Source: Echinostoma caproni
Taxonomy: Eukaryota > Platyhelminthes > Trematoda > Plagiorchiida > Echinostomatidae
Length of the DNA: 64,000 bases
Direction: 5' to 3'
Assembly (NCBI GenBank): GCA_900618425.1
Contig: UZAN01039469.1
Span: 92,235 to 156,234, forward strand
Shown here: in pieces, positions 30,025 to 64,000 of the stretch
Position numbering within the stretch: the first letter of the stretch is position 1
Layout of the letters: each line of letters opens with the position of its first letter
Position numbers and translations under genes: made by a program
Notes under the pieces: model-generated
What the model saw: only the letters and a program-made list of their open reading frames with translations
The model's database searches: none
Told to the model about the DNA's origin: nothing

Positions 30025-30190
30025 AGAAACGGTATGATCAGATGCCCGGGTTGTTGGTATGCTTGCGCTCTACCTGTGAGGTCCCGGGTTCGATTCCCAG
30101 TTGGATCGATTGTTGCACCGCTGATGAGAACCAACCAGGTAGAAACATTTGTCCATGCTTTGTTCCAAGCTTTTCAGCTCATGCCCCATT
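30025..30190 (+). mobile_element. tRNA-derived SINE carrying a hammerhead fold
   Basis: A perfect Pol III B box, GGTTCGATTCC, lies at 30,087-30,097 inside a T-arm-like CCGGGTTCGATTCCCAG. It is preceded by a weak A-box-like TGGTATGCTTG (from 30,055). A hammerhead-like core starts 24 bases after the B box. Pol III boxes plus a hammerhead in one short repeat is the known plan of the schistosome Sm-alpha family. The limits given are approximate because no clean terminal repeats are visible. Confidence 0.6.
30113..30158 (+). ncRNA. Hammerhead ribozyme-like core (imperfect)
   Basis: CTGATGA (30,121-30,127) is followed by a weak stem II, GAACC-loop-GGTA, then GAAA (30,142-30,145) and a minimal stem III, AC-ATTT-GT. 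The expected cleavage site GTC ends at 30,153. Stem I pairs G30120 with C54, and GCA (30,115-30,117) with TGC (30,156-30,158), around a small internal loop. All invariant core bases are present. Stem II has an A bulge and a G-A closing mismatch, so activity may be reduced or lost. Confidence 0.55.
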
Positions 30191-36452: not shown

Positions 36453-36519
36453 ATATCAAACCGTTAAAATTGTTGTTTGGCAGATTTGAAGCTTGTACGT
36501 CGATTTGGAAAAGTTCAGT

Positions 36520-36588
36520 GGCCTCGGTGGGATTCGAACCCACGCATGGATGCCCCCTACGCTTTGTACGCGCACGCCCTACGAGGCC
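36520..36588 (-). repeat. tRNA-like repeat (family A), D arm deleted
   Basis: On the minus strand GGCCTCG pairs perfectly with CGAGGCC at the other end (acceptor-like stem). GTGGG-TTCGAAT-CCCAC is a perfect T arm. Compared with its partner, about 14 bases of the D arm, including the A box, are missing. It is therefore a derived repeat and not a working tRNA. The antisense reading gives RWDSNPR, a peptide that arises whenever a tRNA T arm is translated backward. Confidence 0.75.
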
Positions 36589-36676
36589 GCACCGACAGAA
36601 CTGATCCACTGACGTCACATGTCTCTGTAAGCTGTATGGGTAAATTCGAATGTGAAATTATCAGGGCCATCAGTAT

Positions 36677-36757
36677 GGCCTCGTAGCTCAGCTGGTGGAG
36701 CGTGCGCGTACTTAGCGTAGGCGGCGTCCATGCGTGGATTCGAATCCCACCGAGGCT
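36677..36757 (+). repeat. tRNA-like repeat (family A), with A and B boxes
   Basis: The acceptor-like stem is GGCCTCG with CGAGGCT. TAGCTCAGCTGG fits the A box and GGATTCGAATCC the B box. A cloverleaf can be drawn: D stem GCTC/GAGC, anticodon stem TGCGC/GCGTA with loop GTACTTA, T arm GTGGA-TTCGAAT-CCCAC with one mismatch. The anticodon would be ACT, and the variable region has 14 bases. The T-stem mismatch, the unusual anticodon and the existence of related copies (36,520 and 45,595) argue for a SINE or tRNA pseudogene. Confidence 0.7.
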
Positions 36758-36839
36758 AGTGAACTTATATCAAACTGTTTAGAACGCGAGGGGAGGGGGG
36801 AGAAATCATGACAGGTCAGAAAAGTGATAACCAACATCC

Positions 36840-38200
36840 CAGTTCCATGACCGGATGTTGCTTACACTTTGGTCCTCAAACATGCGCACTAGTTCGGATC
36901 ATTAGGGGTGGGTGGGGCTGTGTCGTGTATGGTATTGGTCATGAAAGAACAAGTGTTCTTACGCATTGTTTTTTAGAGCATAAAGGGGGGGGGGTATGTG
37001 GGTGGATTCCGATCGCTTCCGCTGTGGCCAAAGTGTGATTCATAATCGTCTTAGATCGGCGGGCGTAAACTAAGTAGAGGGGTCGAAATGCGGTGGCCAC
37101 ATTAACTACATTGTTCGGTTCCGCTAGATGTGAAACGATTACGCTATTAATGGTCCTAATTACTCCACTATTCAACCAGACCGGGTGCTGCGCACGGACC
37201 AGTTCAGGTAAACGTCTGCTTTTGCGGCCAATGGATCTTGCTCCACAGGAGCACGTAAATAAGTACACACAGAAAGAAAAGGCAGAAACAGGCAATTTAT
37301 CTTTGAGTTGAAAGCATAGAAGTGGCCTGGAGATTAACACGATAGGCAGTTTTGCTGCGGGGAATGCCTTTTCTACATTTTTACTCAGCTTGCGTGTTAC
37401 CATATCGGCGGTTGTGTCGCCCTTNCCCTTGAAAGGTAGCAATGTGCAAATCGGTTTCTTCTTCGCGGCAGTGGTCTTATTTGGTCAACCGATGACGATC
37501 CAAAAATTTGTCCACAAATCGCTCTGGATATCCGTTTCGAAGGAAAACCTCTCGAATAAACCTCAGTTCTGTATCAATGGTATTGTCCATACACATTCTC
37601 CGCGCCCTGATAGCGAGGCGGTGCATTAGGTTCCTTTTCCGTTCCAAAGGCACATAGCTTTTGAAATGGATATACTGATCATTCCACGACGGCTTCTTGT
37701 GTATGGTGCATCGGATAGTTCCGTTTGATTGACGGCGTAGTAGAATGTCCAGAAATGCAAACTTAATGTTTGGATTAGCTGAATTAAATACTTTCAAGAG
37801 TCTAACCAGATCCACACTGTCAATGGTAAAGCACAAATTGTCATCCCCAAAGCACTTGTAAAATGTGCTACGATCGACTGTTCGTTTTAAGATGTCATTC
37901 TCCAGCTTAAACCATCAATATATCAGCGAACAGTGGACCCAGAAGAGATTCCATTGCTAATCCATCAATTTAGAGATCAACTTCGTCATTGAATTTGATT
38001 TTTATGTTGTGTGTGCAAAAGTATGGTAATTTTTTTAGATCACCAACTGGTATTCCAATTTCACAATGTCACAACGGTCAAAGAAACACTTTTCTTTTAG
38101 TTCATAGCTATTTCCAAGGGAAACGCCTGTTGAATAAACATCCTTTTTTTCTCGAAATGTTTATCACGTTGATTCATAAATGTGTTTGGGAACCTTTTTT
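36840..38200 (-). mobile_element. Penelope-like element, RT part plus GIY-YIG endonuclease
   Basis: On the minus strand from about 38,060: GDLKKLPYFCTHNIKIKFND, then DGLAMESLLGPLFADI (matching DGVAMGSPLGP-LADI of the family). The active-site box is FYKCFGDDN (FGDD at 37,840-37,851 instead of YVDD), followed by KFAFLDILLRRQSNGTIRCT, IHKKPSWNDQYIHF, ERKRNLMHRL and the linker PFKGDTTADMVTRKL. The GIY-YIG-type domain follows, CVYLFTCSCGARSIGRKSRR (37,205-37,275), and then HTLATAEAIGIH near the C-terminus. Stops and frameshifts are present, and an N sits at 37,425. The tyrosine of the YIG half has become serine. Both enzymes are probably dead. Confidence 0.9.
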
Positions 38201-39319
38201 CTCCGGCATGTAGAAAACTGCTCAATTTTCAAAAAATTATTATCTACGGCAGTTTTTGAAAATCTAGATTGATTCTTATTGCTTGTTCTTGCTCACAGAT
38301 TGTTCAGGTATGCTACACGTGTTCATTTCGAATCAGCTGGCATACTTATTCAGTTCAAGGCTTGTCCAATAGATTAAATTTAAAACGCGGTTCCTGAACA
38401 TCATCATACTCCGCTATATGCACTGATCATATGGCGTGCACAAACCAGATCGATAGCCCTTGGGACTATTAACATGATTTCCAGTATTTTTTCTTTCAAA
38501 TTGTCCGTCTATAAATATCACGTAGTCATGTGTACCCTTAATCACTGTATTGAAAACAAGAACTATTCAAATAAACAGACACGCTCCTCTCCGAGTCTGA
38601 TTATTTTTTTTACCGTGTTTATTTCAGATTCTCTTCGCAACCTGAGAATTTAAGATCGAAGATAAACAGTTTATTCGGTTATTCATTGTCCGGTTTATAT
38701 AACCATTATGTAAATGGAACTGTATGCTAATAAGTGAAAGTATATGTGACTTGCACTAGGGAAAGGGTAGTTTTCACTTACCCTAATTGGTCTTCATAAT
38801 CAGGTTACGTCAGTGGAACGTTTCGAAAATAAGTTACTGTCTGTGAGTGGTTCACCTTCCGCCAGTTCCTCATTGAGCTTCAAAATTAGTTTGCCGAGAT
38901 CGTATAATATGCACGGCTGTAGAGGGAAGGAAGAGAATGTAAGTTGCCAAACAGAGAAGTTACATTCTCTTAGACAGTTTTACACACAAATATACAAAAC
39001 AAAACACCCGAGCCTGATGAATGGTCTGAGGAACAAGTAATAACAGTCCTCCATCAGCAACTGTTGAAGACTAACCATAAAACAGTAAATTCATGCGCAC
39101 GGAAGCCAGCCACTCGGGGAGCTATTAACTATACTTCGGCATCTCAAAGAAAAACAAACTGTTAACCCGAGGCAGCATTTCAGTCAGAAGGCATTCGTTC
39201 CATACTGTGAACAAAAACACATCCAACTCAGCTAGTGTGTCCTGTGAGCATTGCGACTCCCAATGATTGGAATTTAGACACGCACGTAAGTAGCCTAATG
39301 CAGCTGAATAACACTGTTT
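38201..39319. other. No gene seen
   Basis: This may contain an unrecognised 5' part of the Penelope-like element to the left. No certain motif is visible. Confidence 0.35.
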
Positions 39320-39429
39320 AATTTAGATGCTGAATGTTTGGATTAGCCCATCTGGTTTTTCACAGGCACCGGGCACTTTTGATGATGTTGGTTGTGGGTT
39401 TCACTCCTTGGGAGATCGTTAATTCCCCA

Positions 39430-39434
39430 NNNNN
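39430..39434. other. Short sequence gap (5 N)
   Basis: Five N inside the hammerhead repeat. The true distance may differ, and the block between the hammerhead and the right end is slightly uncertain. Single N also occur at 1281, 28,045 and 37,425. Confidence 1.
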
Positions 39435-39456
39435 GTTTGTGATAACTGAGAAATAA

Positions 39457-39500
39457 CACAGAAGATCTGTTTCGTCCTGTTTGAGACTCGTCAGTAGTGT
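39457..39500 (-). ncRNA. Hammerhead ribozyme-like core, degraded
   Basis: On the minus strand CTGACGA (U7 to C, a position that tolerates change) is followed by a good stem II, GTCT-CAAAC-AGGAC, then GAAA. Stem III and the cleavage triplet have drifted (CAGATCTTC instead of CAGCTGTC), and stem I pairs poorly. It is recognisable as a relative of the intact copy at 39,683-39,739 but is probably inactive. Confidence 0.55.
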
Positions 39501-39599
39501 GTACTTTTTGAGTCCCTGCCATCATCAACAGTGTTTGATGTCCGAGTGGACTAATCCAAACATTCACTATCTAAATTGATTGAGACATTCGCACATGGT

Positions 39600-39760
39600 G
39601 ATAACCGTCGACTTTGTAGGTCAAATGTAAGAGCTTGAAGTCCCAGTCCGAAGAATCGCACTTCGAGTCCTGATGGGGACAAAAAGAACCCACTGCTGAT
39701 GAGTCTAAACCAGGACGAAACAGCTGTCCAGTGTTCTTTGTTGGTTATCACAATTCCATC
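39600..39760 (+). mobile_element. SINE with intact hammerhead, copy 2
   Basis: TAGGTCAAATG (about 39,620) is close to the A-box consensus and TTCGAGTCC (39,662-39,670) to a B box. A complete hammerhead follows 25 bases later. The spacing from B box to CTGATGA is almost the same as at 30.1 kb. The block after it, CTTTGTTGGTTATCACAA, is shared with the repeats at 39.4 kb (minus) and 56.5 kb. The inverted ends of those two repeats are not seen here. It lies head to head with copy 1. Confidence 0.65.
39683..39739 (+). ncRNA. Type I hammerhead ribozyme, complete core
   Basis: Stem I is CACTG (39,691-39,695) with CAGTG (39,729-39,733), extended by AAAGAA (39,683-39,688) with TTCTTT (39,734-39,739) across a two-base internal loop. 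The core is CTGATGA (39,696-39,702). Stem II is GTC(T)/(G)GAC (39,703-39,716). GAAA follows at 39,717-39,720. Stem III is two base pairs with loop AGCT. Cleavage is predicted after C39728. Every invariant residue (C3 to A9, G12 to A14, the A15.1-U16.1 pair, H17 = C) is present. The very short stem III is typical of Sm-alpha-like and metazoan retrozyme hammerheads, which tend to cleave as dimers. Confidence 0.82.
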
Positions 39761-39904
39761 GCATTCAAAGCTCCTGTCTTTATAGAAGAACCCATAACCG
39801 GCCTGGATGACATATCCACAAGTCCTTGACACCCTGGCAAGTCACAAAGCCTATCCTTTAAGTGTACTGTACCAAAAATTGTTTGAAGATATTTTGCTTC
39901 CTCA

Positions 39905-40690
39905 GCTGTGGTAAGACGGTTTCATTTCATCAATTTACAAAGATGGATGCCGTAGTGACCCAGCCAACTACCGACCCGTCACTGTCCTTCCAATGTTGCC
40001 AAAAGTCATGGAATCCATTGTCGCAGATTCTGTAATGGACCATCTGCAGAATAATGGCATGCTATCCCCAACCAAGCACGGGTTTCGGAAAATCAGTCAT
40101 GGGTAACTAACTCGATTTGGACTCGAGACGATTGGACCCATGCTGTAGACCAAGGCAAGCGGTAGATGTTATTTACGTGATAGGGTAAATCATCAACTAC
40201 TCATACCGACGCTATTTAACTATGGAAGCCGCGGACTCCTACTTGGTTGGATTGAGAAGTTTCTTCGACTACGTACCATGTCAGTTTCGATTCACTTTCT
40301 GATGTCAACCGTGGAGTTCCACAGGGATCTGTGCTAGGCCCACGTTTTTTCTTTGCCCTTATAAATGAATGATCTTCCACGCGTCCTCGGACCAAAACCT
40401 CTGGCGTTTGTAGGCGATGCCAAAATATGTAGAAAAATCAGAAGGTTCATTTGATCTCCAAAACACCCTTGACGAAGCCCACAGATGATTTGTCTCCAAT
40501 GACATGGACTTTAACCTTATCAAATACAACGTCTTATCACTAGGTCAGAATGGTTGTTTCTCCTGCATTCTCGGACACGAAACTTTGCCTCATGCTTTAT
40601 CCGAGAGGGATCTGGCAATAGTCATTTGCACAGACATGAGTTTCTCCACAAACTGTTCAGCACTGTACAGTGCTGTTGTTGTTGGTTAGC
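39905..40690 (+). mobile_element. CR1-like reverse transcriptase, central part
   Basis: FIKDGCRSDPANYRPVTVLP then KVMESIVADSVMDHLQNNGM and HGF mark the start of a CR1-type polymerase. VDQGK and DVIYV follow out of frame, then NRGVPQGSVLGPRFFFALIN and the active-site box FVGDA (40,407-40,421; FADDA expected). The 40,504-40,689 frame ends with KYNVLSLGQN and ILGHETLPHALSERDLAIV, matching the 0.4-1.3 kb copy (ILGNQILPHATDERDLRV). The first catalytic aspartate has become glycine and the copy has stops, so it is inactive. Both ends are missing. Confidence 0.88.
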
Positions 40691-42639
40691 ACAAACATTT
40701 CCATCATATTTAACATATTTTACTTTCTGATTACTTCCCTGATATGGTCTGCGCGTGACCGAGAAGTTTGTTTTTTTATTTATTTTTTTCTAATGACTGA
40801 TAATATCAAACTGATGATATTAATAGTAATTCATTCAGTCTATTACACATGTAAGAGTACTAAAATCGTTCGACTAGTAAGACAATCATCTCCAGGAGAT
40901 TCAAGGTTATCCTCTAAGCTGGTCTAGACGCTGAGTAAAGTATTCATACGACTGGAGTCATTAACGAGAACTTGCTTGGCAAAAAGCAGCAAGTGAATAG
41001 AAAATCGGCATTCAACTTCATGTATCAAATGTTGCCCCCTACATGAAGGTCCGACCACCGTATCCTATATTAGTGCACACCTTTCAAGAAATTTGTGACC
41101 AGCATTCGAATATCTGCATCTATACAGTATGGTTAGAGAAATAAATACTGATCCGGAGGCTACAATTAACCGACCACTAGTCGATCACTCCCACTACAGA
41201 TCCGAACGCTGTGACCGCATACCAAATGGCCGGGGGAACTCCGCCCCACAACTACAATTATCCGTTCGCTTCACCAGACGTTGCACCTTTCACTGTACAT
41301 TCATTCCTATTATAGCCCTTCAAAGGTTTGACAAGTAGACGTTCCAAACAAGAATGCTCTTCCCATTTCAAAGTAATTCATATAGGTTGTTAGTCTGTAG
41401 AACAGTCGCGTTATTCAACATTCATTCACACAGCATTTTCTTTCCGTTGAGTGTGATCCGTATCACGCACGCCCGTCTGCATCGTATACTGTGTTTGTTG
41501 TTGAGTTTACCTTTTACGCTTGATTTTTCTTAAGTGTCTATTCCTCATCTAATATTGACCGGACAATGGATTCATTCCACTCGCCGCATTTGCCGAGCCT
41601 AGTGCACCTGTCTCCGCAGTTGGAGCACTACACACTGCAGGCATCCAGTTTCTAAAACATGAAAGATCAAACCGGCCAAAAAGGAAAAATTTCCCTCTCC
41701 GATTAATATGAAATTTCTACATATACCCTACTGTTGTGTTCCAACAGAAACGGCACGACTCAAAACTGATTGACTGTGTCCTGTTCTCTTCGAATTGCAA
41801 AAAGAGATAAATCTTCGAGGTTCGGTCAGTCGACACCAAAAAGCACTTTCGTGCGAGATATATTATCGGAGGAAATATCAACAAGGTTGGATTGAACGTA
41901 TCCAGCTTCACATTACACTCAATAATACCTGATGAAATCCAACAGTCGGTGGTTTTGATAAGGTATTGACAAAATTCCTGCTTCATGGTGCCTGATGAAT
42001 TGTTCACCTGGTAGTGCTCTGTTTACGGTTATGATACCATTGGTTCGGAGGTCTTGTTTCATTTATGTTTCTTATTTTGCAGTTTCGTTTTCATTAGTCA
42101 AAGTCCCGTTGAAGAAAACTAACGACATAATTGAGTAGTTGATAAATGAACGAGAAAAAGAAAGAGGATCCTTTTCTGGGCAAGACGCATCTGATTGTCT
42201 TGTGATATTTGACAGAGGTGTGTACTGTGTCCACTTTTTTTGTCTATACTTCTCAAATCTGAAAGAAATTTAATCCGAGATTCATGTGTGTATCAATGGA
42301 ATCAAAATGTGATTGAGTTAATAGACGGATCACATATTTAGAATTATGATGCCAGTCTAGAATTTAATCTTTTGCATCCCTAAAGTAAAAGGCGACGGTA
42401 GGGAACCAGTATAACCTACATTGATTTTGGCGGCTGTCAATAAGAGAGCTAGAACACCCAACGAGAGACCATAATAGCTGGGCAAAGGCTAAGTACGTGC
42501 TTGTTTTCAACTTTAGCTTATCATCATTGAAGCTATTCACTTTACTCAAGCATTCAAAATCAGAGTCTGAGGAACGTCCCTTCAAGAAACACGATTCGTG
42601 CCTATGAATTGCATAAACTGGCAACGGCGTAAAGAGATA
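40691..42639. other. Unassigned 2 kb, no gene seen
   Basis: A stretch at about 41,140-41,330 has partial similarity to 53,270-53,440 (both have GGCTACAAT, then CGCTG-GA-C, then TGCACC-TTCA), so it may be part of a low-copy repeat. No coding sequence was recognised. Confidence 0.3.
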
Positions 42640-42879: not shown

Positions 42880-44850
42880 GGTTTTATGAAGACGATGCCG
42901 GAAAGATTGTAAACATGCCCACTTGTGCTTTTTGAAACGGGAACTGCGTTTTGAGGTCAACATAGGGAGCTTGTCAGTTTTGCTAATGCTGTTGCTTTCG
43001 TCCTAGAAAACGTCATTGATGAGAAGTTTTCAGACTTGATGAGACAAAACAAATTGAGTTCGCATAGAAGAATAGAAAAATTTTATTGTATCTCGATGAA
43101 ATCAAGCCCCACAAGGGCTCTGGGGTGGTTATTATGGTCAAAGAGAGCTATGAAGAAAAAATGAACCACATATTGTCGGACGCTAGGAAATTCCAAGTGG
43201 GCAATACACCTGATAACATCCTAACAGAGACACTGATTACCCGAAAGCTTCAGATTCTGTTATTACGTGGTTACATTTCCAAAGCTCAATACAAATACCT
43301 GAAGCCGCTGGGAACAGAGACACCCCAGATGAAAGGTTCATCCAAAATCTACAAAGCCGGCACCCCCACTCGGACCAATTTTTTGCATGCAGAATTCATC
43401 ATAGCACAAGGAAACTCGATGGTTGTTTGCCATTTTGGATCCTATTTGTAAAACCCTGACGCCTCATTCTATTAAAGGTTCTTTTGAACTGATTAATTTA
43501 TTAAACAATTTTAAGGTTACCCACGGTAACCGAAAGGTCGGCGAATATAATTCTCTACCGACATTGCGGTACTCTTAACACTCTCAACTTTAATTTATCT
43601 TCTCATAACATATTTTCCATTGATGTTGATTCACTTTTTACAAATGTTCCTCTCTAGGAAACAGTAGACTTTTTATGTGATTTTATCTCTTCAATCAATA
43701 TCCACCTTCCTACCTCCCTAGATTATTTAAGAGATCTTAACATCGTTTGCAATGAGAACATAAGTTTTGAATTTGAAGGAACAGCGCACAAAAATAAATT
43801 GACGCTGTACCAATGGGCAGTCCTCTAGGCACAATGTAAGCCGATGTATTTCTAGGAATGGTTGAAAGACGATTGAATGATAATGTTTCAATATCTGTCT
43901 CTTTTGTACAAACGTTATGTTAATGATATTTTGATTTTTATCGACTCTGAGCATTTCGGCACCAGTTTAACACTATTTGATAATATTCATTCCAATCTCT
44001 CTGTTTCCCTTCGAGAGGAAAAAGACGGTTGTTTGAATATTTCAGATATAAAAAATCAGGAGGCGATCAGATGGAACCTTCAAAAGATCCGCCTACCGGA
44101 AGATTATATGGAGAGGATAATACTTACAACTTGCCAGTTTCGCTCCTGTTGCTCACAGAAGAGGTCTGGGAAGAATCTGTTTCATCGTGTCAGTAATATT
44201 TGCTTCCCTGACACTGTCCAAGAGGAAGAGGCTTTCCTGCAAAGGACGCTACTGGATAACGGCTATTCAGGGCAATTTATTCATGTGCATAGCAGACGAA
44301 ATACACGGGTTGCGAAGTGCCGGAGAAGAGCGTCTTCCTCAGACTCGCCTTTAAAGGTCATCATATAATTAACGACGTGCGTCAAAAGCTCAAAACGACA
44401 TTGTGTCAAACGGTCCTTGTCGCACAACTTCGATTGATAAAGCATACCCAAGGACTATGTTTGGACAATCGAAAACAGAACCAGCCGAACAATTCAGCTT
44501 CCTATTTCATTTACCAGTTCACTTGCATTTGCGATGACATTTGCATTGGCAGAACGAATCGAGCCCTGGTACAGCGGATGTCTGAACACATTCCCAAGTG
44601 TTTGATACAATCGATAATGTAACAGAGTTTTACAGTACTAACTGATGAGAGAAATCCAGGGTCATCAATCGCAAAACACGTCATGGCAACTGGACACATC
44701 GTTGACCCGCAAATATCGTTCAAGCCGTTATCACTTAACATGAACCCCAAGATTTAGGCGTTTAGCGAGGCGATGTTAATCAAGTTACGTAACCCAATCT
44801 TGTACGCACAAAAGTTTCTTACACAATCAGTCAGACTGCCATGGAACTGA
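42880..44850 (+). mobile_element. Penelope-like element, nearly full coding length, broken
   Basis: In order: KPHKGSGVVIMVKESYEEKM with the N-terminal RT block to 43,451; FSIDVDSLFTNVPL near 43,620; IDAVPMGSPLGTM then ADVFLGMVERRLND near 43,800; the active-site box YKRYVNDILIF, where YVDD has become YVND (43,916-43,927); KSVFLRLAFKGHHIINDV; the GIY-YIG domain IYQFTCICDDICIGRTNR (about 44,510-44,570); SSIAKHVMATGHIVDP; and the C-terminal ILYAQKFLTQSVRLPWN followed by a stop at about 44,850. At least three in-frame stops and several frameshifts separate these pieces. It is the most complete Penelope-like copy in the window. Confidence 0.92.
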
Positions 44851-54300: not shown

Positions 54301-56433
54301 ATCCCTTGGTATTTTGTCCAAATTGAATAAAACAACGATAACGTTAAAAAAGTTATACCAAAATAATCAAAAGCTTGCATCACTGTTTCCGCATTATTAC
54401 TTCGTCATCAGTTCAAGCTTTCTCTGAACCTACGTTGTTTAACAAACCATACTCCGAAGAACATTTTCGCACAGTTTTAAGTGAATCTACTTAGTTAAAA
54501 GATAATTGAATATAACTGAATTTTCTGATTTTTATTATGGGCTTTATTCTGAATTTCATAAAAACAACATATCACTCCGCTGGCATTGCATTTAACATTC
54601 AGGTCACTAACGTTTCCGTAACTTGATGGTACACATATATATATATATGCATTTATCTCATGCCGCATTCCAGATTGCGTCAAACAGAATACAGTACAGT
54701 AATCTTTATAAAAAGAAAAGTTTCCATGAATTGCTTGTGAGGAAAATACGGCGAGCTTTTCGAAGTCAAAGCAGGTCGAATTTCTCAGGGAACAGAGCTG
54801 AAGTCCTTGACTAGCCTGATCCGCAAGGCAGGGGTGTGATGTGCAAAAACCGAAATCCACTGAGAGTAGATGTCCAATTCAATAAGTTCATGGTTCACAC
54901 ATCTTTTCTTGGTTGGTTTGAAATCAAGGGTTTTAGCCAACTCCTCTGCGTAAGTAAGCTCCAGTGGTTCACCGATCCCGCAACGACGCCGGAAGTCGGC
55001 TTTTCGTCCTCGCGTTTTGGTTGGAAAAACACCCTCACCACGCAATGGCAGTAAGCAGGGTTTCCACAGCAGCGACCATCTGAACCACTTGATCGAGCAA
55101 GAGCGATTCACGAACAAACAACGCCCCATCCATCGCGCAGCCATATGGAGGCATTCGGACAATGGTCACGGGTTGGTGAACAAGGTTTATCTTAACAACA
55201 AAATATCACTTTTCAACTAGGTGAAAGATGAAGCATGATGATATGCCTGAGTGATTCGTGACTTGTAATTATTATTCAGAGAAGGTTTATTGAAAGCCAT
55301 CGGCGAAAATTCAATTCACATGTTATCGCTGAGTATTCGAAGACAAAAATAGGTAAGGTTTTTGCAAGATTCATTACATGGTAATTTGAAAATCAAAGAA
55401 AACCAAAAAACTCGCAAATTGTTTTCATATATCCATAATGAACCAAAACGCCATCTTTTCGGTGCGGACGATAAATACTGCTTGGGTGATCTGTATTCTG
55501 TGAATGTTTTATTATTCTGATTATACTGAGTTTGCTATGAATTTTCAAATTGCATGACATTCCGTTAGTTCAATTATGGAAATGGAGGCTAGCTGCCCTC
55601 CGGATTTATTGATCTGTTTTCTGCCCTTCAAATCAGATGATTCCGAATTGGATTTAGTCAGTGATCATTGAAATTTATTCAAGCAACTCGGCACAAGAAA
55701 TTATTTTTCTCATCTTGAATACTGTTTAATTCTGGTTTTCCTAGGTTCATTATATCTTATATATATCTTATATTTACTTTTCAAGCAGACTTTTATTTTA
55801 CTTAGTGCCTCGAAATTCGTTTATGTACTCATAAATGAGAAGAGAAATCTTTTTGCTCAAATAGCCACTGCATTTCATTTACTCAAACCCTAGTGTTTAG
55901 TCCAATTCACCACGAAATGAATTAATTACCGAGTTAAGGGTCAACGTAGACAGTTTTCAGTGGTATAATTAAAATACCTCAAAACGTGCAAGTAATAAGA
56001 CGTGGTCAGTTTCCATTTGATTTACTTTGATAGAATTGACGTTTGTCACTCGTTGTAATAAATGCTTGCACGTATGGAGCTCTCAATCTGCTATGGTGGA
56101 TTTCCACTGAAATGGACAAATTAATCTCAATATATTTTAATATATACGGAAGGAAAGCAATTCTATTCAACTAATTCAATCAAATTCCTAAGATCTAAAT
56201 AAATTTTGGTCATGAAATTGTCATTTTGACATAAATTACTTGATCGATTTATGTTTGTAATCGTCCAGTTTACACCGCTGGATCAATTTTAGAAAATAGT
56301 TTGACATCGATTTGGTCAACAGAACGATATACTTCAAACAGGAAGTTAGCAAATAAGCATTAGCCCTCACTTTTTGTGTCCTTGTCAGGATTTCATCCGC
56401 GCGGTCGATGGCCACCATCTTGTGCGAATGGGT
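51301..56433. other. Unassigned 5 kb
   Basis: Short frames only. A GC-richer piece at 52,060-52,250 and the part at 53,270-53,440 (similar to 41.14-41.33 kb) may be old repeats. The open frame at 54,785-55,162 is listed separately. Confidence 0.35.
54785..55162 (-). CDS. Unidentified open frame in a GC-richer segment (doubtful)
   Basis: A 125-codon minus-strand frame reads KTRGRKADFRRRCGIGEPLE, LTYAEELAKTLDFKPTKKRC and onward. The local GC content is above that of the flanks. The plus strand also stays open here (RRRKSAFRPRVLVGKTPSPR), so the coding strand is unclear. I do not recognise a domain. It could be an exon, a piece of a transposase-like protein, or chance. Confidence 0.15.
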   Translation of the reverse strand: MSECLHMAARWMGRCLFVNRSCSIKWFRWSLLWKPCLLPLRGEGVFPTKTRGRKADFRRRCGIGEPLELTYAEELAKTLDFKPTKKRCVNHELIELDIYSQWISVFAHHTPALRIRLVKDFSSVP

Positions 56434-56708
56434 CAATCGATTTTGGGTATCAAATTTGGATTAGCCCATTTGCCATTCAAGTCAGGGAACCAAAACGTAT
56501 GTACTGTTGACGAGCTCTAAACAGGATGAAACGGCTGTCCAGTGCTCTTTGTCCGTTATCACAAACATATCGATATCATTCAATTTCACTTACATCGTGG
56601 TGAATTACCGATCTCCCAAGGGGTAAAACTCACACCCAAGACAAACAAGAGTGCCTTGTACCTCTGCATAATCGAATGGGATAATCTAAGATTGATACTC
56701 TAAATTGT
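56434..56708 (+). mobile_element. Hammerhead-bearing repeat with terminal inverted repeats, copy 3
   Basis: The left end contains AAATTTGGATTAGCCCAT (56,453-56,470) and the right end ATGGGATAATCTAAGATTG (56,676-56,694) followed by CTCTAAATT. These are imperfect inverted copies of each other and of the ends at 39.3-39.6 kb. The interior has the same block order as copy 1: GTCAGGGAAC, a hammerhead-like core, GTTATCACAAAC, GATCTCCCAAGG, then AGTGCC. It is flanked by unique AT-rich DNA. Confidence 0.65.
56501..56545 (+). ncRNA. Hammerhead ribozyme-like core, degraded
   Basis: TTGACGA stands where CTGATGA is expected (C3 to U, U7 to C). Stem II (CTCT-AAAC-AGGA) has lost pairs. GAAAC-GGCT-GTC and the stem I pair TACTG/CAGTG are kept. 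The C3 change breaks the invariant C3-G8 pairing, so cleavage would be much reduced or absent. Confidence 0.5.
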
Positions 56709-57046
56709 AGTGCGTGTTCAATCTGTGACCCTTTTATGACCTTTGAAAATAACACTTTCCACGTGAAGGAACTTCCAGCGACATCTTTCTGACTATATCT
56801 CACGCTTCACTTGCAATTCTCGCTTTATCCCAGGCAACCAGACAACCACTCTAAAAACAAGACAAGTAGGAATTTTAGGCACCAGGTTAAATTCAATAAA
56901 AAACTCAGGTTTAAGCGTCTTGCCTTGCACAAAGTGTTACTACTGCACCAACTGGTTAACCTAAGAGCTTGTCGATATCACTGATTTGTTCGATCAAATG
57001 TGACGACGATCTGGAGATGTGAACCACTATTATATAGACTCGCAGT

Positions 57047-61194: not shown

Positions 61195-63262
61195 AAAGGG
61201 CAACAACCTCAGATTTAACCTCAATTCTGAACATACGCATTAATTTCAACACATGTGTTGTTTGTGTGCTAGAAACCTGACTGAATCAAACATTGAGGAC
61301 GTTCTCGTGCGACTAGAAGGGTTTGATTGCTACCGGCAGGATAAAGAGCGAAGGAGGAAAAAAACCGGGGCCGGTCTGGCTACTTACATCAATGTTTCCT
61401 AATGTGACGAGTCACAAGTCATACATAACCATTCTGAAAATTCATTGACTGTTTGTCTATTCGTTATCACCCTAAATGTTTTTGTCAGTAAAGTACAATC
61501 ATCACTAATGTTAGACCAAAGGTATACTTTCACATTGCTCATCAAGCATTCACACGTTCTACTCAGTGACAATTTCATCTAAAAGATTTTTCATTCAATC
61601 GTATCTCTCTTCTCAACCGTTCTGTTGTGATTGTTCAGTTTTGATTTGGTTCTTGCCCTTCGCTTTTTAAATCCGTCAATCCGTTCACTGATACGAATAA
61701 ATCGATTTTTAACTTGAGTTATCCAGTGAAAACACTGTTTGTCTGTAACGGTAGAATTATCTCACCCTTCTTGAAATCATTGAAAAGGTAAAAAGAACTG
61801 GCCTAGAAATCTCGTCTTGTATCACTTGTAAAGCAATATTCTGATTTAATCGGGTCCGAGATAGCGTACCTCAATGCAATCTTCGCCGCCCAATTTCTGG
61901 GAACAAAGAAAACCAGGCTCTAATGGCAAGGTATTCGCCTTCTCTGTGAGCAGAACAGAAAACATTCTAATACTTCTGTAGATTTCAACAGCCTCAACTC
62001 TGCTTTCTTCCATTCGTCAAAGGAGAGCCAGATTCCCTCACTTCTATGCAACGAATCCAGTTCAGTGCCTTTTTCAATGATTTACTCTTTAAGCTTATTC
62101 GATACTGTAAAGCATTCTCAGCTGCAGGCTCTCATAGTCTTCCTCCGGCACTTCTGAAATTTGGAGCCGATTCCCTAACCAATATGATGACATCCATCGT
62201 CAATGTGTCCCTGTCTTCCCGGTCGATTCCTCATTCTTGGCGTCCAGTGACCATCATTTCGATCTCCAAATTCACGTCCTCAACTGTTCTTGCGAAACGC
62301 GTTGACCTCAGCGGCTCTAAAGGTAACTGAAAAAGCCATCCTGAGTTGGTTGCAGTCGGACACCACAATTCCTCACGACCTCCTTCAGTTTGCATATAAA
62401 CCAAACAGATCTACATTGAACGCCGTATCTACTCTACTGCATTTTACCCGCAGGTCATTGAACCATTCGGTCAAGTCTGTCCGTTGTGTTTTTATTGACT
62501 ATTCGTCTGCGTTTGATTCTGTTTCCCGATCATCCCTTCTTTTCAAACTTGAATTATTTGGAACTCCAAAACAACTGCTCTCATGGCTTGCTAACTATTT
62601 CACACAAAGGGTTCATTGCATCAAATTAGGAAGGAGGACATCAAAACCTCTTGTTAATAATTCTGGTATCCTTCAAGGGGCTGTTCTATCTCCATATCTT
62701 TTTTCTGCCTTTATTAGTGATCTTTCGGTCCCACCCCCTGCACACATCGAAAAGTATGCTGATGACGTTGTTCTGTGTCAGGCAGTTTCATCTTCTTTCG
62801 GAATTTCATTCTTTTACCGAAAACCTATCCCACATTCAACAGTTTTCTGACCAATTTGGTCTCAGTCTTAACATATCTAAGTGCTTAGAGTACATTTTCA
62901 GTCTTTCCCGCTCCTCGTTTCCAACAGAATCTGCTACCCTTAACGGTAAGCCAGAATGACCTCAGTCAAGTACATGGGTGTCGCCATCGACAGCAATCTT
63001 CATTGGTCTACACATGTTTGCTACTGTATGGGAAAACTCAGACGCCTATCTTTTCAGTTACGCAAACTCAGGTAATTCTGAAACCCACAATCAGTCCTGT
63101 CATCTTTTGTTCATCAATAAGTTTTAACCATTTTACTCTATTGCTCCCCTGTATTGGTTCCCGGTTTTTTAAAACAAGACTTTAAAACAATTCGCCGTGG
63201 TCTGATGATCATCAGTTGGGCATCGTTAATTCCGATCGATTCACAGAACTCATTGATGGTCA
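61195..63262 (+). mobile_element. L2-like non-LTR retrotransposon, copy B (endonuclease and RT)
   Basis: The endonuclease part is visible near 61,245-61,400: NFNTCVVCVLET, then VRLEGFDCYRQDKERRRK and GAGLATYIN, matching the ICVTETWL / GF--FR-DR / GGG--LYI blocks of APE-type endonucleases. The RT includes SRSIPHSWRPVTIISIS, AALKVTEKAILSWLQSD, QFAYKPNRSTLNAVSTLLHF, VFIDYSSAFDSVSR, NNSGILQGAVLSPYLFSAF and an intact KYADDVVLC (about 62,752). SVKYMGVAIDSNLHWSTHV follows after stops. The 62,290-62,850 frame is 186 codons, the best preserved stretch of this family. The copy stops in the ELIDGH motif at 63,262, where an RTE-like sequence begins. Confidence 0.92.
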
Positions 63263-64000
63263 CACGAGTTCACCACGGAAAGTGGTGTTCGACAGGGTTG
63301 CCCTCTCTCTCCTTTTCTATTTAACTTTGTCATAGATTGAATTCTTGAAACAGCCCTATCCTGGTGCAGGGATAGCGGTATCGATTTATTTCCGGGTGGC
63401 AGACTGTCTGATCTAGAGTATGCAGACGACATTGTGCTACTAAGTGACGATCCAGGTAAGTTGCAAGCTTTTCTGGATAGTTTGAGTGCTAATGTTACCA
63501 TGTTCGGTATGCGTTTTGCACCTTCAAAGTGTAGAATGCTACTACAAGATTGGGTTGATCCAGCTCCCAGTCTCATCCTAACTAGGGAAGTAGTAGATGA
63601 AGTAGACAAATTTTGTTATCTAGGCAGCTATATCTCACCCGGCGGACGCATCACAGATGAAGTGTCGGCGCGCATGCAAAAGGCTCGATTGGCATTTGCC
63701 AACTTGAGACATTTGTGGCGCCGTCGCGACATCCGGCTGTCTGTGAAGGGTCGAGTGTATGCTGCAGCAGTTCGGCCAGTCCTGCTCTACGGTGCAGAAA
63801 CTTGGCCACTAAAAGAAACAGGATAAAAATAGATTGTTGGTGTTCGAACACCGCTGTCTATGTAGCATTGCACGTGTCTGGTGGGGTAACCGGACTAGCA
63901 ATGCTGAGGTTAGGCGTAGAGTTTAGGCAGTCGCGGTCGTCCACTAGAGGAAGTGATCGACCTCCATAGGTTACGCTGGTTGGGACATGTGCAACGCATG
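63263..64000 (+). mobile_element. RTE-like retrotransposon, partial, continues past the window
   Basis: One frame runs 63,263-63,826 with a single stop (TGA, 63,335-63,337). It reads EFTTESGVRQGCPLSPFLFN, the active-site box EYADDIVLLSD (YADD at 63,419-63,430), SKCRMLLQDW, FCYLGSYISPGGRITDEV, RMQKARLAFANLRHLWRRRD and RPVLLYGAETWPLK. A frameshift near 63,812 is followed by VFEHRCLCSIARVWWGNRTS and EVRRRV. RLRWLGHVQRM stands at the window end. Catalytic residues are intact and there are few lesions, so it looks younger than its neighbours. It is 5' truncated inside the polymerase domain. Confidence 0.93.

Follow-up and report, generated by a model that had tools for sequence, protein, structure and literature searches.

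Mirrored head-to-head composites of a hammerhead-bearing SINE family in Echinostoma caproni, with an insertion structure that hints at a Penelope-like engine

The question raised by this locus is what kind of element carries the hammerhead ribozyme that a first-pass annotation placed within it, and how that element came to be inserted. The ribozyme lies in a 64,000-nucleotide stretch of Echinostoma caproni DNA, all of which was analysed and which is referred to here as the window, and it had been described as complete, of type I, and contained in a short Pol III-type repeat of the SMalpha or retrozyme kind.

The Rfam covariance scan that had been proposed as a check was run with cmscan on the 64-kb window and gave a significant match to the type I hammerhead model RF00163 at 39690–39734 on the plus strand (43.4 bits, gathering cut-off 34, E 8.6e-8 over the entire window and model library). 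The alignment extended over the full model (positions 1–45), which bore out the reading of a complete type I hammerhead. The invariant core residues were present, namely CUGAUGA (39696–39702), GAA together with A15.1, and C17, which is C39728. A pair-by-pair fold reproduced the predicted cut after C39728 and the perfect stem I, which spans 39683–39739 and consists of AAAGAA/UUCUUU (6 bp) and CACUG/CAGUG (5 bp); the CC that interrupts this stem was present, but it formed a one-sided 2-nt bulge and not the internal loop that had been described. Stem III was minimal, as stated, with 2 bp (A-U, C-G) capped by the tetraloop AGCU. The core residues, the three stems and the open stem I place the motif in the type I class.

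Folding of the monomer and the dimer, which had also been suggested, gave a divided result. The nearest-neighbour optimum of the isolated motif (-15.4 kcal/mol) was a fold other than the hammerhead (-7.5 kcal/mol), and the Rfam consensus used as a control behaved alike (optimum -12.8 kcal/mol, hammerhead -7.8 kcal/mol). Stem III and its loop form an 8-nt palindrome, ACAGCUGU, found exactly in 43 of the 68 genome loci described below, and a double hammerhead with this palindrome as the common stem III was near-optimal (-30.9 against -32.4 kcal/mol for the best co-fold, a gap of 1.5 kcal/mol). Judged from its sequence, the window copy may still be able to cleave.

Analysis of the surrounding DNA revealed the ribozyme to be part of one arm of a 452-bp head-to-head composite at 39318–39769, the opposite arm of which contains another hammerhead, encoded on the minus strand (Table 1; positions in the family unit are prefixed by u). 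The two pieces of the minus-strand arm were 83.3 and 83.9% identical to the genome consensus and the plus-strand arm 84.1%, and this equal divergence is expected if the composite is one insertion. The locus appears to be an old copy, about 84% identical to the consensus, and no target-site duplication (TSD) was found around the window copies. Two other readings of the locus were considered and rejected. The minus-strand hammerhead was not taken as the 5′ pLTR of the neighbouring Penelope-like fragment, because both hammerheads belong to one SINE composite and the unit did not match Penelope-like loci. The segments 39547–39577 and 39320–39350 were not taken as arms under RNA selection, as only 2 of 31 pairs were compensated on both sides and 5 were broken; pairing of the arms within a copy (-41.4, -33.6) was stronger than across copies (-23.1, -28.4), and the composite structure accounts for the arms.

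Table 1. Features located in the 64,000-nucleotide window (positions are those of the window; u, position in the 320-nt unit)
Feature	Position	Strand	Evidence
Relative with exact B box and decayed hammerhead, u184-267	30080..30158	+	unit HMM E 2.9e-7
Broken retrotransposon fragment, Penelope-like reading	36996..38059	-	frames by eye: late RT motifs, thumb, GIY-YIG-like end
E1 arm in two pieces, u110 to u1 followed by u288 to u202; 5-N gap	39318..39521	-	unit HMM E 8.6e-28, 1.4e-21
Second type I hammerhead, stem III damaged	39456..39500	-	RF00163 35.4 bits, above gathering 34
E2 arm, u41-306 (A-arm end, tRNA-like part, hammerhead, tail)	39520..39769	+	unit HMM E 2e-63; 84.1% identity to consensus
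Decayed A box TAGGTCAAATG (consensus TAGCTCAGGGG)	39617..39627	+	one mismatch to TRGYNNANNNG
Decayed B box CTTCGAGTC (consensus GTTCGAGTC), 26 nt ahead of core	39661..39669	+	one mismatch to GWTCRANNC
Complete type I hammerhead ribozyme	39683..39739	+	RF00163 43.4 bits and fold checked pair by pair; predicted cleavage C39728/C39729
Palindrome ACAGCTGT, stem III and loop	39720..39727	+	sequence reading; could give 8-bp shared stem III in dimer
LINE RT sequence	39954-40653		window similarity
Separate family piece, u257-305	40663..40713	+	unit HMM E 3.7e-7; local alignment, 0/1000 shuffles as good
Second broken Penelope-like fragment, RT to GIY-YIG	43101..44736	+	frames, tblastn, GIY-YIG E 0.044 (below its cut-off)
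Second composite	56394..56715	.	unit HMM: minus u153-66, then plus u184-307 and u3-116
LINE RT sequence	62251-62850		RVT_1 E 8e-19

Further pieces of the same family were present in the window. The second composite contained a decayed hammerhead (56501–56545, plus strand) that scored 31.4 bits with RF00163, below the cut-off, and the relative near 30 kb contained a decayed fourth hammerhead at about 30114–30164 that was seen by homology alone, no Rfam hammerhead match being found there. This relative matched positions 2205–2378 of one genome locus (L001) at 73%, pointing to a second tRNA-hammerhead subfamily. The separate piece at 40663–40713 begins no more than 5 nt from the cleavage position and is adjoined on its left by a LINE fragment, the protein similarity of which to another window copy stops at 40653. 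This LINE fragment, which ends within the RT region, has the E2 end of the composite on one side and the second E2 piece on the other (39770–40713), an arrangement that is perhaps a template-jump chimera or a nested insertion.

A search of the genome (426.5 Mb, 12,689 contigs) with RF00163 gave at least 74 scored matches, those listed all lying above the cut-off, and 66,429 first-look candidates; these counts are lower bounds, because the window's own two hits were not among the matches listed. There were no RF00163 matches in 14 control genomes, and exact-pattern scans of viral and prokaryote collections found no match. Sixty-eight loci (8 + 60) were chosen by score, and are therefore biased to intact copies; their hammerheads were close variants of one sequence. 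An iterated profile gave a unit with a period of 320 nt and a GC content of 48.6%, made up of a tail part, an A arm, a tRNA-like part, the hammerhead and a tail. Folding of the RNA of the whole element was weak (z -1.44), and the consensus unit folded as a circle beat 59 of 60 simple shuffles. ARAGORN did not find a tRNA in the unit consensus.

The genome consensus carried an A box, TAGCTCAGGGG, and a B box, GGTTCGAGTCC, where the window copy has its boxes. The boxes noted upstream of the ribozyme are thus real in origin, although those of the window copy have decayed by one mismatch each, and an A and B pair as good or better was found upstream of 16% of random window positions. Across the genome, 30 of 67 loci had an exact B box at the expected place, and 17 of 67 had both boxes exact; an exact B box lay upstream of about 0.5% of random window positions, over an interval slightly different from that of the genome count. 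Eight unselected genome stretches (38.6 kb excluding N) held one family copy, and this copy was also mirrored. The dispersed 320-nt family, with boxes directly upstream of a conserved hammerhead, supports the identification of a Pol III short repeat of the SMalpha or retrozyme type, and the family is a very abundant, non-autonomous SINE with a tRNA-like promoter and a type I hammerhead. That identification gave the right type of family but was incomplete, since the unit forms just one of two mirrored arms in a composite, and the other arm bears its own hammerhead on the opposite strand.

Inverted head-to-head composites, in which a minus-strand piece abuts a plus-strand piece, were found at 46 of the 68 fetched loci, the remaining 22 being plain copies. 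This tally is restricted to the hammerhead-bearing chain of pieces, so that a further neighbouring inverted copy at L004 is not included. One outer end lay near u110 (E1) and the other near u306 (E2), about 124 nt apart. With the end classes defined as u87–130 (E1) and u291–311 (E2), limits that were set after the data had been seen, 35 of the 36 composites with both ends classed had ends of opposite type and 1 had ends of equal type; a further 10 composites had one end outside both classes. Where no minus-strand piece was detected (22 loci), several copies, L016 and L038 among them, begin with a short stretch of E1. The junction between the arms was variable, and arms can pass through the unit more than once (L013, L050, L065). 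Units repeated for more than one round were seen at L015, L091 and L100; some loci comprised 1.3 to 2 units in line, and most loci were head to head. A minority of outer ends differed, being AC-rich ...CCGCAAA (u41–49) in L017 and L055, just beyond the hammerhead cut in L064, and at u279 in L049. In a second set of 39 loci, picked by a query without the hammerhead core, a minus-strand piece was present in 26; 30 ended at E1 and 5 elsewhere, and 4 ran to the limit of the fetched stretch.

Duplications flanking the elements were scored at 66 loci, 2 of the 68 having been dropped for short or N-containing flanks. A TSD score of at least 9 was obtained at 22 of the 66 loci, against 0.98 expected when flanks were shuffled between loci, and a score of at least 11 at 16 of 66, against 0.04 expected; one locus (L059) is a simple TA repeat and is to be discounted. 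Among the inverted composites 18 of 46 scored at least 9 (null 1.5%). The TSDs were about 11–15 bp long and enclosed the whole pair of mirrored arms, and the composite is therefore one insertion at those loci.

Both fluke SINEs with hammerheads and animal retrozymes are already known. SMalpha of Schistosoma mansoni derives from tRNA-Gln. It has Pol III boxes and a type I hammerhead (PMC2576457), and more than 38,000 hammerhead hits were reported in S. mansoni (PMC2770079). The present family shares with the SMalpha and Sjalpha SINEs of Schistosoma the Pol III boxes, the type I hammerhead, the short dispersed repeat and the very high copy number, a likeness drawn from published descriptions and from the Rfam hammerhead. 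It differs in belonging to another fluke lineage and in its mirrored composites with two fixed ends, which are unmentioned in those parts of the SMalpha literature that were consulted. Animal non-LTR retrozymes have been described as non-coding retroelements of 170–400 nt with a type I hammerhead and, when present, TSDs (PMC7229834), a range within which the 320-nt unit falls; whereas direct tandem repeats, expressed in circular form, are described for them (PMC7761336), head-to-head composites dominate here. The literature pairing hammerheads with Echinostoma, Fasciola or Clonorchis, as far as it was covered, contained no report of the family. To our knowledge, within that partial coverage, hammerhead SINEs were not previously known to occur in a genome chiefly as mirrored composites.

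Published inserts of Penelope-like elements (PLEs) have an adjacent inverted pLTR and TSDs of 8–10 bp; one inverted pLTR may bear a 31-bp tail, and the head-to-head orientation prevails among their inverted repeats (PMC3846280). The family resembles PLEs in its adjacent inverted terminal piece, unequal ends (the 'tail'), short TSD and association with a hammerhead (PMC3846280, PMC11167929), so that two signs of PLE-type insertion, an inverted arm inside one TSD and two unequal fixed ends, are seen in the SINE. Unlike PLEs it has Pol III-type boxes and no ORF; a PLE proper is excluded, because a 320-nt unit has no room for an ORF encoding RT and GIY-YIG. The hammerheads of PLEs are described as minimal (PMC6155905), whereas that of the unit includes a stem III and its stem I is long. 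The end offset also differs, being about 124 nt in the unit against 31 bp in a rotifer PLE (PMC3846280).

The fragment at 36996–38059 and its genome relatives are presumably PLEs, an identity that we take from motifs matched by eye. A Pfam search of this fragment gave no match; two relatives in the same genome, L070 and L073, matched RVT_1 (E 1.7e-12 and 1.4e-7), and neither gave a Pfam match to the GIY-YIG model. The closest solved RT to the PLE-like sequence was group II intron-like. A query with the PLE-like ORF of the window returned at least 150 scored matches of 5158 candidates, showing PLE-like elements to be common in the genome. Among 11 PLE-like loci, those of the window excluded, two (L074 and L075) contained part of their own 3′ end in inverted orientation, the outer ends being separated by 26 and 30 nt, and in the other 9 no comparable inverted arm was seen within the fetched stretch; L078, in which the piece repeated in inverted orientation is more diverged, was left out of this count. 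Comparison of the unit with the 11 loci and their flanks of up to 1.5 kb showed no sequence similarity, and therefore no common recognition sequence was found.

The LINE RT ORF at 63341–63826 had 165 protein matches, the best being to Echinostoma caproni (75% over 95%), and the best 120 of the 165 also included Schistosoma, Trichobilharzia, Fasciola and other flukes. Protein searches with the short PLE-like and LINE frames gave no match. Two further structures were observed in the window. Inside the minus-strand PLE-like fragment, in its 3′ region, there is a head-to-head tRNA-like pair (36465–36766) that matched RF00005 on both strands, with arms at 36511–36585 and 36692–36766 that are 87% complementary; it is flanked by a near-perfect 13-nt repeat, ATATCAAACCGTT / ATATCAAACTGTT, 9 of which were scored as exact by script, and possibly represents another SINE family whose layout is mirrored. 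The segment 27926–28045 is a near-perfect palindrome with an AT-repeat centre and sub-threshold Rfam miRNA matches on both strands.

How such composites arise bears on an existing proposal. Cervera and de la Pena (2020) put forward PLEs as strong candidate movers of animal retrozymes, on the grounds of common hammerheads, tandem copies and co-occurrence, and the same authors described the retrozyme repeats as lacking a motif that reveals the partner (PMC7229834, PMC7761336). Purified PLE protein has been reported to cleave and extend both target strands, with reverse transcription starting at two internal RNA sites (PMC11167929). As the SINE has the same signs as L074 and L075 and the published PLE inserts, we infer mobilisation by a PLE. 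In this explanation, which taken whole we consider fairly probable, the 320-nt unit is probably transcribed by RNA polymerase III and would be read for more than one round, giving a tandem or circular RNA template. The hammerhead would cut this RNA, most effectively when two copies dimerise through the palindromic stem III. A Penelope-like enzyme would cut both target strands and prime reverse transcription from both ends at two fixed RNA sites, u~110 and u~306, and the two cDNAs would be fused head to head at a variable point, leaving mirrored arms between duplications of about 11–15 bp. The insertion structure hints at a PLE engine and adds new support, not proof; the absence of a sequence match between the unit and the PLE-like loci counts against it, as does the end offset of 124 nt compared with 26–30 nt in L074 and L075. 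The 9 PLE-like loci without such an arm, the missing TSD at the window copy and the many arms that continue past the cut site weigh in the same direction.

A rival account, in which a LINE moves an ordinary SINE of the SMalpha type and the mirrored copies arise by twin priming or template switching during target-primed reverse transcription, would explain several of the same observations, since LINEs likewise produce inversions and TSDs of comparable length. LINE RT sequence is present in the window at two places, the family piece at 40663–40713 adjoins one of them, and the TSD length is compatible. Twin priming leaves the inverted piece with an internal outer end of variable position, whereas in this family the two outer ends are fixed, and they were of opposite type in 35 of 36 composites; the inverted share is high (46 of 68), and two PLE-like genome copies have a like layout, in a comparison covering PLE-like loci only. 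We consider movement by a LINE unlikely.

Neither of the remaining explanations appears probable. If a single cDNA or an antisense template primed itself and snapped back into an inverted arm, with an enzyme of any type, the arms should turn at a nearly equal unit position, as they do at several loci (L008 u57/u42, L009 u37/u32), and self-priming has been suggested for the inverted structures of PLEs (PMC3846280). Many junctions are far apart or wrap past the unit end, however (L013, L026, L050, L065), and the outer end of the inverted arm lies near u110 or u306 instead of at the template end, making self-priming a quite improbable source of the composites. The size, the type I hammerhead and the units of more than one round (L015, L091, L100) would agree with a canonical animal retrozyme, that is, direct tandem dimers with circular RNA and essential self-cleavage, the mirrored form being a side product of repair; yet the fetched set contained more composites (46) than plain copies (22) and the GC content of the unit is at the upper edge of the published range, and we give this account very little credence.

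Returning to PLE-driven insertion, the cDNA arms offer a place to look for cleavage of the template. In Anolis, hammerhead mutants left PLE insertion in vitro unchanged and no reads ended at the cut (PMC11167929). A query starting exactly at the base after the cut (u262), which samples only stops on the 5′ side of the cut in the unit, found 41 places, of which 39 were fetched with flanks. Three of the 39 arms (L095, L099, L121) had clear stops at u258–262, with the 60 nt upstream unlike the hammerhead; a fourth, L093, is doubtful because a short hammerhead-like run lies upstream, and may be an internal deletion (4 of 39 with L093 included). The other 35 arms continued past the cut site, one of them (L122) only to about u254, and the short extensions in L105, L107, L120 and L124 were indels rather than stops. 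An even spread of the roughly 36 mapped stops over u34–262 predicts about 0.8 at the cut (Poisson 0.009 for 4 and about 0.05 for 3). In the first set, two of the four second-pass E2 arms (L023 and L034) stopped at u260–262 and two (L015 and L057) did not, and 10 of 33 E1 arms read through the cut site. These stops barely hint at a record of cleavage in vivo, and most templates would have been uncut or resealed.

The joint claim that these SINEs parasitise PLEs, that the dual-primed mirrored composite is their normal genomic form and that some arm ends record self-cleavage in vivo is put forward tentatively, as somewhat short of an even chance. The mirrored layout, with two fixed opposite ends within a TSD, provides structural evidence on the question of which engine moves retrozymes, and the tallying of cDNA arm stops provides a way to seek ribozyme cleavage from genome sequence alone.
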